Source: Candidatus Proruminimicrobium quisquiliarum (GTDB lineage: Bacteria; Elusimicrobiota; Endomicrobiia; Endomicrobiales; Endomicrobiaceae). From it: a stretch of 64,000 nucleotides of DNA. The notes under the pieces were generated by a model, which worked only from the letters and a program-made list of their open reading frames with translations, made no database searches and was not told the DNA's origin. Positions 37,196 to 63,364 of the stretch are shown in pieces. The first letter of the stretch is position 1; the number at the start of each line of letters is the position of its first letter. Where the stretch lies: positions 310,001 to 374,000 of the forward strand of contig JAHDRN010000001.1 of assembly GCA_018433245.1 (NCBI GenBank). The letters run 5' to 3'. The position numbers and the translations under genes were made by a program.

Positions 37196-37353
37196 CGTAC
37201 CTCCGAGGGTTTCTAAATTTAACGATCGGTCTCCTGACTCAGAGCTTTGCGATTTTAGATAAATCCTTCCCGCTTTTGCAGTGGAAGTATCTGCTTGAAA
37301 TCTGCTCATTACAGTAGCTGGACTGTATCCGATTTTCACGGATTTCCCGTTAA
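37196..37353 (-). promoter_or_regulatory. Cobalamin riboswitch controlling the TonB receptor
   Basis: On the minus strand the conserved core is present in order: CCGTGAAAATCGG, ACAGTCCAGCTACTGTAAT, TTCCACTG, GGGAAGG and the closing box GAGTCAGGAGACCGATC. It begins only a few bases after the btuD stop, so it sits inside the operon and gives the receptor its own control. The downstream part could sequester the ribosome-binding site; I saw no terminator before the receptor. Confidence 0.9.
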
Positions 37354-37356
37354 TCG

Positions 37357-38139
37357 TTATTTATTATCACTAAAAACAGGAATTACGACAGGTTTGTTTG
37401 AGACCGGATTGGTCTTGACAACGACAGTCGTATTGTACACTGTTTCTATATCTTTATAGTTCAAAACTTCAGTTGGCGTACCGCTTTTGAAAATAGTTCC
37501 TTTATCCATTAAAATCAAATTGGAACAAAATTCTCCTGCGGCATTTAAATCATGTATGGTTGTTATTATTGTTTTCTTGTGTTCTATATTTAAAATTCTA
37601 AGCAGTCTGAATATTGAAGACTGGCTTCCGATATCAAGATGTGAAGTAGGTTCATCAAAAGCTATGATATCTGTTTCCTGAGCAAGAGTCTGTGCTATTA
37701 AAACTTTTTGTCTTTCTCCGCCGGAAAGTTCAAGAATGCTTCTTTCTGCAAATTCTTTTGTTTCCGTAAAATCCATAATCTCTTCGATTTTTTTGTAATC
37801 TTCTTTTAAAGCATATTTGAAAAAATTCATATGGGGGAATCTGCCGAACATTATAAAATCTTTTACGATAAACGGAAAATCTATCGGCATATTCTGTGGC
37901 AGAAAAGAAAGTTTTTTTGCCAATAAATTTCTTTTCATTTTATAAATATCCGTTCCGTTGATAAAAATGTTTCCTGAATAAGGTTTTAAAAGTCCTGACA
38001 GGGATTTAAGCAGAGTTGTTTTTCCGGCTCCGTTTTTTCCGATAATACCTATAAAAGAACATTCACTGATATCTGTTGAAATGTTATCAACTACGGCAAT
38101 CTTATTATATCCGCATGATAAATTTTTAATTTTTATCAT
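37357..38139 (-). CDS. btuD: Vitamin B12 ABC importer ATPase
   Basis: 260 residues. Walker A GKNGAGKTTLL, signature LSGGERQK, Walker B IIAFDEPTSHLD, switch TTIHDLN. FecE/BtuD-type. The start overlaps the btuC end by 4 bases. Energises corrinoid uptake across the inner membrane with BtuC and BtuF. Confidence 0.9.
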   Translation of the reverse strand: MIKIKNLSCGYNKIAVVDNISTDISECSFIGIIGKNGAGKTTLLKSLSGLLKPYSGNIFINGTDIYKMKRNLLAKKLSFLPQNMPIDFPFIVKDFIMFGRFPHMNFFKYALKEDYKKIEEIMDFTETKEFAERSILELSGGERQKVLIAQTLAQETDIIAFDEPTSHLDIGSQSSIFRLLRILNIEHKKTIITTIHDLNAAGEFCSNLILMDKGTIFKSGTPTEVLNYKDIETVYNTTVVVKTNPVSNKPVVIPVFSDNK

Positions 38140-40537: not shown

Positions 40538-40583
40538 TAAATGTTAAAATATAAAACTCTCTCCCTAGAAAGAAACAGCAAAA

Positions 40584-40671
40584 AGATAAATAAATAGACC
40601 GGGCTTACATATAAAATATGCTTACCGTTGCTGGGCAGCGTCCGAATTACGGAACTTCCTTTTATTTATCT
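40584..40671 (-). promoter_or_regulatory. Compact cobalamin-type riboswitch upstream of cobO-btuFCD
   Basis: The closing stem AGATAAATAAA / TTTATTTATCT is perfect. Inside on the minus strand are GGAAG, a CCG-TAATT-CGG hairpin, CGCTGCCCAGCAACGGTAAG, a CATATTTTATATG hairpin and AAGCCCGGTC. This order matches the cobalamin aptamer core (…GCCCxGCxACxGTAA… then a CCxGGxxxxC box) but is far shorter than the classic element at 37196. The identification rests on this core plus the cobalamin genes it precedes. Confidence 0.7.
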
Positions 40672-40690
40672 GTAAAACTTAAAAGAACAT

Positions 40691-40764
40691 TGGGCCTGGT
40701 AGGACTTGAACCTACGACCATTCGATTATGAGTCGAGTGCTCTAACCAACTGAGCTACAGGCCC
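40691..40764 (-). tRNA. tRNA with CAT anticodon, probably Ile2
   Basis: Acceptor GGGCCTG/CAGGCCC with discriminator A, loop CTCATAA giving CAT. CGACTCATAATCG and the following TGGTCG resemble tRNA-Ile2 (lysidine-modified) genes, but an elongator tRNA-Met cannot be excluded. It is not initiator-like (no GGG/CCC anticodon stem). CCA is not encoded. Confidence 0.85.
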
Positions 40765-61022: not shown

Positions 61023-61973
61023 GTGTTAAAACCGAAAGTTTCAATTATAGGATGCGGAAACGTAGGTATGAGGTATGCCTATGCTTTAATGATAAAAGGT
61101 AATGCAAGAGAAATAACTCTTGTTGATTATGATATAAAAAAGGCAGAAGGTGAGGCTATGGACTTATCACACGGAGCTCCATATACTAACCCTGTTAATG
61201 TTGTTGCCGGCACATATAAAGATATAAGCGGTTCTGATTTAGTTGTAATCACAGCCGGCAAGAAACAAAAACCCGGTCAGACAAGGGTAGACCTTCTTAA
61301 AGATAATATAGATTTGTTTAAAAGCATAATTCCTGAAATTATAAAATATGCTCCTGATGCAATTTTAGTAATAGCTTCAAATCCCGTTGATATTCTTACT
61401 TATGCCGCCTATAAAATATCGGGTAAAAAATCTTCAAAAGTTATAGGTTCGGGAACCCTTTTGGATTCTGCCAGATTCAGATATGAAATAGCCAGACACT
61501 GCAATATTGATTCAAGAAGCATACATGCTTATATTTTGGGAGAACACGGCGACAGTGAATTTCCGGTATGGAGCAAAGCTACACTCGGCGGAGTAAATAT
61601 AGACAGTTACTGCATGCTATGCAACAACAAATCAGATTGTGACCATAAAGCTAAACTTGACGAAATATTTATCAACGTAAAAAACTCGGCTTATAAGATA
61701 ATAGAAAAAAAAGGCGAAACTTCTTACGGAATAGGCCTTGCTCTTGTAAGAATCACACAGGCAATTCTTCAGAATGAGAATGCGGTTCTTCCCGTATCTG
61801 TTTTAATTGAAGATTTTTGCGGAGTAGAAGATGTTTATTTGAGTCTTCCGTCAGTTATTAATGCGGAAGGAATAAGACAGGTACAGAAAATTGAATTTAA
61901 CGAAATAGAAAAAAAATCATTTGTTGAATCTGCAACCGTTCTAAAACAATTATTGAAAGAAGTTGGTTTCTAG
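61023..61973 (+). CDS. ldh: L-lactate dehydrogenase-type enzyme
   Basis: 316 residues from GTG at 61023. NAD site GCGNVGMRYAYALM, active-site loop TAGKKQKPGQTRVDLL with Gln at the position equal to Gln102 of bacterial LDH, Arg109 in QTR, substrate Arg in SARFRYE, catalytic His in GEHGDSEFP. Gln102 predicts pyruvate/lactate specificity. An insertion CMLCNNKSDCDHK lies in the middle. Followed after 2 bases by a close paralogue. Confidence 0.88.
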   Translation: MLKPKVSIIGCGNVGMRYAYALMIKGNAREITLVDYDIKKAEGEAMDLSHGAPYTNPVNVVAGTYKDISGSDLVVITAGKKQKPGQTRVDLLKDNIDLFKSIIPEIIKYAPDAILVIASNPVDILTYAAYKISGKKSSKVIGSGTLLDSARFRYEIARHCNIDSRSIHAYILGEHGDSEFPVWSKATLGGVNIDSYCMLCNNKSDCDHKAKLDEIFINVKNSAYKIIEKKGETSYGIGLALVRITQAILQNENAVLPVSVLIEDFCGVEDVYLSLPSVINAEGIRQVQKIEFNEIEKKSFVESATVLKQLLKEVGF

Positions 61974-61975
61974 CC

Positions 61976-62929
61976 ATGGAGAATATATTAAAACCAAAAG
62001 TTTCTATTATAGGCTGCGGCAGTGTTGGTATGAGGTATGCTTATGCCTTAATGATGAAAGGAATAGCCAGAGAGATCACTCTTGTTGACGTTGATATGAA
62101 AAAAGCGGAAGGCGAGGCCATGGATTTATCCCACGGACTGCCGTATACTGATCCTGTTAATATTGCTGCAGGAGAATATAAAGATATAGCCGGTTCCGAT
62201 TTAGTTGTTGTAACAGCCGGTAAAAAGCGGAAGTCCGGGCAAACAAGGGTAGATTTATTAAAAGATAATATAGATTTGTTTAAGACAATAATTCCTGAAA
62301 TTATGAAATATGCGCCGGATACGATTTTGCTGATAGTATCCAATCCTGTAGATCTTTTAACTTACATTGCTTATAAAATATCCGGCAAAAAATCTTCTAA
62401 AATTATAGGTTCAGGAACTCTTTTAGACACTGCAAGACTTAAAAATGAAATATCAAAAAACTGCAATATAGATTCAAGAAGTATACATGCTTATATATTA
62501 GGGGAACACGGCGACAGCGGATTTCCTGTTTGGAGCAAAGCTGCGGTCGGCGGTATAAATATAGAGACATATTGTCTTCTATGTGATAATAAATGTCAAT
62601 ATAAAAAGAAATTGGAAGAAATATTTAACAATGTCAAAACTTCAGGTTCTGCAATTATTCAAAGAAAAGGTGAAACTTCATACGGAATAGGCCTTGCTCT
62701 TTTAAAAATTACACAGGCCATTCTTAAGAACGAAAACGCTGTTCTTCCGGTATCAGTATTAATTGAAAATATTTACGGGATAAATGATGTGTATTTAAGT
62801 TTACCGGCTGTAATTAATTCAGACGGAGTAAGACAGGTACAAAACATTGAATTTAATGACACGGAAAAGCAGGCATTTTTAAAATCGGCAAATGTTCTAA
62901 AACAGTTATTGAAAGAAGTGGGATTTTAA
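61976..62929 (+). CDS. LDH/MDH-family paralogue with Arg102, predicted malate dehydrogenase
   Basis: 317 residues, colinear with the upstream gene and closely similar throughout, so a tandem duplicate. The active-site loop reads TAGKKRKSGQTRVDLL: codon CGG (Arg) replaces Gln102, the residue that sets malate against lactate specificity in this superfamily. The catalytic His (GEHGDSGFP) and Arg171-type residues remain. Predicted substrate oxaloacetate/malate; this needs assay. The middle insertion CLLCDNKCQYK is shared. Confidence 0.85.
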   Translation: MENILKPKVSIIGCGSVGMRYAYALMMKGIAREITLVDVDMKKAEGEAMDLSHGLPYTDPVNIAAGEYKDIAGSDLVVVTAGKKRKSGQTRVDLLKDNIDLFKTIIPEIMKYAPDTILLIVSNPVDLLTYIAYKISGKKSSKIIGSGTLLDTARLKNEISKNCNIDSRSIHAYILGEHGDSGFPVWSKAAVGGINIETYCLLCDNKCQYKKKLEEIFNNVKTSGSAIIQRKGETSYGIGLALLKITQAILKNENAVLPVSVLIENIYGINDVYLSLPAVINSDGVRQVQNIEFNDTEKQAFLKSANVLKQLLKEVGF

Positions 62930-62944
62930 ATACGGAGTTTAATC

Positions 62945-63364
62945 ATGAAAACTTATAGAAAAGAACTTACGTTCAACACGTCAAAACGAATAGAATTTAT
63001 AAACATAACAGAACAGGTTCAAGACGCAATAGACGAAAGCGGCGTTAAAGAAGGAATTTGTCTTGTTAATGCCATGCATATAACGGCAAGCGTTTTTATA
63101 AACGATCACGAATACGGTCTTCACAGTGATTTTGAAAAATGGCTTGAAAAACTTGCTCCGCACCAGCCCATAAATTATTACCGTCACAATGATACCGGCG
63201 AGGACAATGCGGATTCGCATCTTAAAAGACAAATAATGGGAAGAGAAGTTACAGTTGCAGTTACAAACGGCCGGCTGGATTTTGGTCCGTGGGAACAGAT
63301 ATTTTACGGAGAATTTGACGGGATGAGAAGAAAAAGAGTTTTAATAAAAATAATCGGCGGTTAA
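62945..63364 (+). CDS. yjbQ: YjbQ/UPF0047 family protein
   Basis: 139 residues. [39 protein letters not shown] and [19 protein letters not shown] are the family blocks with three conserved His. E. coli YjbQ has weak thiamin-phosphate synthase activity; the real role is unknown. Confidence 0.9.

Follow-up and report, generated by a model that had tools for sequence, protein, structure and literature searches.

Among the textbook models of enzyme specificity is the lactate dehydrogenase/malate dehydrogenase (LDH/MDH) pair, and an engineered enzyme is among the described systems closest to the genes considered here. In the LDH of Bacillus stearothermophilus (BsLDH) the single substitution Q102R (Wilks et al. 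1988, via PMC4109310) changes a 10^3 preference for pyruvate into a 10^4 preference for oxaloacetate (Boucher et al., PMC4109310), in agreement with a preliminary description of this locus, which states that Gln102Arg alone turns that enzyme to malate. Natural switches from MDH to LDH have been described at least four times (PMC4109310; PMC9486893), each having taken a different route, which is attributed to epistasis. An intermediate group of enzymes with mixed signatures has also been described (PMC9486893), and in Clostridium cellulolyticum, which has both ldh and mdh, the MDH is thought to work with malic enzyme (PMC3268733). No description of a natural reversal, from LDH to MDH, was found in the open-licence literature.

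The locus described here is a tandem pair of genes, A and B, from the near-complete assembly (1.94 Mb, completeness 100) of an uncultured Endomicrobiaceae bacterium; the window is the whole stretch of DNA analysed, 64,000 nucleotides in length. Gene B resembles the BsLDH Q102R mutant in the residue changed, in the predicted direction from LDH to MDH and in its scaffold, that of a canonical LDH with T246 and I250 (BsLDH also has E199). The BsLDH enzyme is an engineered single mutant, whereas B is natural, carries A138V, A236G and the loss of Y237 in addition, and has been kept by selection beside its parent gene. With the apicomplexan, Cryptosporidium and trichomonad LDHs (PMC4109310) it shares a duplication followed by a change in the specificity loop, and apparently convergent origins within one superfamily; unlike B, those enzymes went from MDH to LDH and have Lys, Gly and Leu at residue 102. 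B combines R102 with T246 and H68, as does the intermediate MalDH group that lies between type-3 MDH and LDH, e.g., Archaeoglobus fulgidus (R102, T246, P250; PMC9486893), but the R102/T246 members of that group keep P250 whereas B has I250, and as B is nested inside the Q102/I250 LDHs its mixed signature is secondary. C. cellulolyticum is likewise an anaerobe in which a Q102 paralogue (ldh) coexists with an R102 one (mdh); however, these two are not close duplicates in tandem, and a recent split found no support in the published tree (PMC3268733).

The gene pair and its signature residues

Gene A (61023..61973, forward strand) is a complete ORF of 316 aa with a GTG start, and gene B (61976..62929, forward strand) a complete ORF of 317 aa with an ATG start. 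They lie in tandem on the same strand with a gap of 2 bases and are 77.5-78% identical, as the preliminary description of two adjacent, closely similar genes had it. Upstream of the pair are a 2-oxoacid:ferredoxin oxidoreductase set and an N-acetyltransferase, and downstream are YjbQ and BirA; the YjbQ-family gene directly 3' of the pair (62945..63364, forward strand) is possibly co-transcribed with it and also follows it in the other genome of the same genus (g1). Elsewhere in the window two cobalamin riboswitches are found on the reverse strand (37207-37386 and 40555-40686), the second of which directly adjoins a tRNA (40691-40764, reverse strand).

The residues were numbered by alignment to BsLDH (sequence checked against PDB 1ldb/1ldn), with the MDH of Chloroflexus aurantiacus (checked against 1guy) as a second reference. 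The Gln (CAA, 61266..61268, forward strand) of A and the Arg (CGG, 62228..62230, forward strand) of B, which had been proposed as the site of the specificity switch, both fall exactly at position 102, in the contexts AGKK-Q-KPGQTR and AGKK-R-KSGQTR, respectively. That the Arg belongs to another position is excluded, as the catalytic residues R109, D168, R171 and H195 are separately present in both proteins. The canonical L-LDH signature (Q102, D/E199, T246, I250, H68) is found in A, the residue table of which reads Q102, A138, E199, A236, Y237, T246 and I250, with R173 and H188. In B the table reads R102, V138, G199, G236 and S237, with T246 and I250 unchanged. Val138 (GTA, 62336..62338, forward strand) replaces the Ala found in A and its close Gln-type relatives, and Gly236 and Ser237 (GGT and TCT, 62645..62650, forward strand) replace an Ala-Tyr that all the compared Gln copies of the family share. 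B lacks the Gln102 of a canonical L-LDH and has Arg102 together with R109, D168, R171 and H195, the residues expected of an MDH, on a scaffold which is that of an LDH, in that it passes the L-LDH equivalog and nests among LDHs in trees. The type-3 MalDH signature (M199, A/S246, P250) is absent, these positions being G199, T246 and I250. R173 and H188, which we take to be the fructose 1,6-bisphosphate activation site of bacterial LDHs, are both present in A; position 173 is Lys in B of this genome and Arg in B of the other g1 genome.

A scores 381 bits against the L-LDH-NAD model of NCBIfam (TIGR01771, cut-off 303.6) and 279.5 bits against the MDH model NF004863, under the cut-off of 283. B scores 374 bits against TIGR01771, which it still passes, and passes NF004863 with 291 bits (cut-off 283), whilst against the MalateDH_bact equivalog TIGR01763 it fails (206 bits vs a cut-off of 351.9). 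All copies tested from g1 and from a second genus, g13, pass TIGR01771, so that this model would name B a lactate dehydrogenase, a label which our reading would correct. Among the same copies the NF004863 cut-off is passed by Arg copies only (291.2, 288.5, 301.3 and 300.2 bits); the Gln copies lie under it (279.5, 274.8 and 282.6 bits), that of G013 by a small margin. As judged from the sequences, the likeliest reading is that A acts as an LDH and that B, which descends from an LDH, acts as a malate dehydrogenase.

Distribution and phylogeny of the Arg102 copies

Matches to B were found in 45 of the 77 family genomes. The second g1 genome (G001, an assembly with 9% contamination) has the same gene order around the pair and the same Q-then-R tandem arrangement with the same CGG codon, so that neither chance nor an error of sequencing lies behind it. 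A single copy, with Gln102, is present in the sister genera g11 and g9. In g13 an extra Arg102 copy is present in three genomes (G082:C24:16542-18561, L066; G021:C193, L068; G084:C244, L067), in tandem in two of them, with the order R then Q and the codon AGA. The g13 Arg copies have D68, as in MDH, and have lost both R173 and H188; that of G084 contains a low-complexity insertion of ~25 residues. A phylum-wide scan for Arg102 with Gln/Glu107 gave matches in 14 of 341 genomes; the match lay in an LDH homologue in only five of these (two g1 and three g13), all already known, and the remaining genomes gave no tblastn match.

Several other homologues were observed. A separate Arg102, T246, I250 homologue in g7 (L071:3191-4087, on G055:C27), 37% identical to B, occurs in a genome which has a partial LDH elsewhere; an MDH may have arisen here in yet another, third way, perhaps through gene transfer. 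Other g7 genomes (G017, G056, G057, G065, G066 and G077) contain LDH fragments, several with stop codons, and the LDH is decaying in this genus of reduced genomes. Two order-level relatives, L011 (G030) and L016 (G026), have Ile or Thr at 102 (AGKNITPGQTR, AGKSTLPGQSR) and Val112; with neither an LDH nor an MDH signature, they are perhaps another 2-hydroxyacid dehydrogenase. An Ldh_2-type dehydrogenase is present in three genera without the LDH (G014, G022, G012, G006, G016).

Gln is ancestral at 102 by parsimony and by comparison with the clostridial outgroup, as it is found in that outgroup and in all single copies of the sister genera. In maximum-likelihood trees a g1/g11 clade encloses the g1 Arg copies (support 98/96), and those of g13 (support 100/100) fall within a g13/g2/g10/g7 clade. 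The proposal of a duplication followed by a change of specificity fits this topology, in which B is nested within a Gln102 LDH clade. A single Arg clade, with the constrained group defined by residue and not by tree, was rejected by the AU test (p = 0.009), and was still rejected (p = 0.008) once the columns of 102, 138, 199, 236, 237 and one loop site were removed. The codons also differ between the g1 and g13 Arg copies (CGG/AGA at 102, GTA/GTT at 138, GGT/GGC at 236), which argues against transfer of the stretch. Together with the opposite gene order and the different neighbours, these results point to independent origins in the two genera.

The history could differ if one ancient Arg copy, common to both genera, had its age masked by gene conversion involving the adjacent Gln gene, and there are signs of such conversion. 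The two genes of G001 have a synonymous distance of 0.55, below the orthologue distances of 0.95-1.2, and their codons 38-80 are almost identical, which suggests gene conversion between them. The four g1 sequences are grouped by species at 35 sites and by paralogue at 26, and the paralogue sites fall at codon positions 1-2 more often (12/26 vs 6/35, Fisher p = 0.015); on these small samples, it appears that silent sites have been homogenised between the neighbours and specificity sites kept distinct. Nevertheless, we consider a single ancient copy highly improbable: conversion would have to rewrite nearly everything except the key residues, the copy must have been lost from the in-between genera, and the codons, gene order, neighbours and AU tests all stand against it. 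Independent origin in g1 and g13 is thus preferred.

Parallel active-site changes and the predicted function of gene B

Among 106 columns invariant across 34 Gln copies, both B copies deviate at four and no more, namely 102, 236, 237 and a loop site (BsLDH index 55). Three of these four are active-site positions (Q102R, A236G and Y237S/H). The g13 Arg copies are changed at 18 of the 106 columns, all four B sites being among them (hypergeometric p = 6e-4), and read R102, V138, G236 and K237, so that the outcome is identical in the two genera at 102 (Arg) and 236 (Gly). A138V is also common to the g1 B and g13 Arg copies; it is weaker evidence because some order-level Gln102 LDHs also have V138. 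Residue 199 has changed from Glu to Gly in B of this genome and to Ala in the g13 Arg copies, Glu being kept in B of G001, and no full-length copy shows a change at T246 or I250. In MDH active sites the first-shell positions 102, 199, 236 and 237 are Arg, Met, Gly and Gly (PMC4109310). The specificity change put forward in the preliminary description thereby gains further MDH-like sites in B (A138V, A236G and the lost Y237), a set which is repeated in another genus. We think it probable, with somewhat less assurance than for the function of B itself, that LDH gave rise to MDH twice, independently, within one family by way of Q102R, A138V, A236G and the loss of Tyr237.

In the proposed sequence of events, a canonical Gln102 L-LDH would first have been duplicated in tandem in or near the ancestor of the genus, after which the downstream copy would have been neofunctionalised. 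A236G and the loss of Tyr237 would alter the opposite wall of the pocket, where MDHs have Gly-Gly, and A138V would adjoin Asn140 of the catalytic shell. B is then predicted to catalyse the NADH-dependent reduction of oxaloacetate to malate, or the oxidation of malate, whilst A would keep pyruvate/lactate.

A decaying or dosage duplicate, in which Arg102 reflects drift, would be in keeping with the longer branch of this genome's B (0.23 vs 0.08) and its P105S and R173K substitutions. B is, however, intact in two species with CGG kept in both, it retains the catalytic R109, D168, R171 and H195, and the same changes occur in an independent lineage. The dN/dS ratio is ~0.11 between B orthologues and 0.07 between A orthologues (rough values, as dS is near saturation), and B is under purifying selection; drift has next to no probability as an explanation.

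A weightier alternative, though still an unlikely one, is that B is bifunctional or leans towards lactate, Arg102 having broadened its specificity whilst activity on pyruvate is maintained by T246 and I250 and, in one of the species, also by E199. All full-length Arg copies have T246 and I250, B of G001 has E199, B passes the L-LDH equivalog model, and enzymes of the intermediate group with T246 use both substrates (PMC9486893). T246 has been described as unfavourable for oxaloacetate (PMC9486893), and the retention of T246 and I250, with E199 in B of the other species, means that the specificity of B may fall short of that of a type-3 MDH. Against this, all three residues (T246, I250 and E199) also occur in BsLDH, the Q102R mutant of which still prefers oxaloacetate 10^4-fold; a dedicated LDH lies next door; and A236G and the loss of Y237 have twice accompanied R102. 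Activity on another acidic 2-oxoacid, e.g., 2-oxoglutarate or sulfopyruvate, in place of oxaloacetate seems to us very unlikely. Gly236 and an altered 237 would enlarge the pocket, and the g13 Arg copy of G082 and G021 adjoins a gene which reads by eye as a glutamate dehydrogenase, but what was gained, R102, V138 and G236, is what malate dehydrogenase has at these positions, and no such context exists in g1. Taken with the published Q102R experiment, the residues support a change of substrate, and we regard B as probably a malate dehydrogenase.

Metabolic context

The preliminary description had called for a check for another malate dehydrogenase gene. A search of this genome for the LDH/MDH fold and for Ldh_2 yielded A and B alone for the fold and nothing for Ldh_2, and no further NAD malate dehydrogenase of these types. 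With the same scope, no LDH-like MDH beyond the g1 and g13 Arg copies and the G055 homologue was seen in the 77 family genomes, and the Ldh_2-type malate dehydrogenase is absent from g1 and g13. Phosphoenolpyruvate carboxykinase (PEPCK), malic enzyme and fumarase are all present in this genome; in the family, fumarase is found in 65/77, malic enzyme in 67/77 and GTP-type PEPCK in 62/77 genomes. As other sources of oxaloacetate, pyruvate carboxylase (PF02436) was over the cut-off in 1/77 genomes, PEP carboxylase (PF00311) in none of the 77, and the aspartase model gave weak matches only, below its cut-off.

Malic enzyme is part of a conserved family-wide cluster, together with two fumarase-like genes and one that reads as type III pantothenate kinase (e.g., L092, L094, L095). 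A 2024 paper on Endomicrobia treats Ldh solely as lactate dehydrogenase and reports PckA as generally lacking in the family (PMC11257099); the near-universal GTP-type PEPCK (e.g., G000:C33:18352-19434) is contrary to this, and perhaps the ATP-type PckA was meant.

We infer the substrate, direction and pathway role of B, the last from gene content. With no other NAD MDH found and PEPCK, malic enzyme and fumarase near-universal, B would join the oxaloacetate from GTP-type PEPCK to malate for malic enzyme and fumarase, which would permit a PEPCK-MDH-malic enzyme route such as has been considered in clostridia (PMC3268733). That other members of the family live without the oxaloacetate-malate step counts against this role.

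If LDH did switch to MDH twice, independently, then the reverse path is accessible in nature and can be taken again, and nature would have performed the textbook enzyme-engineering experiment twice over; the switches would also name the accompanying sites 138, 236 and 237, which the single-mutant experiment did not need, and the extant pairs (~80% identical in g1) would be usable for kinetics and ancestral reconstruction. In its own genome, the gene content suggests, B would supply the step between oxaloacetate and malate that seems to be missing from most members of the family.
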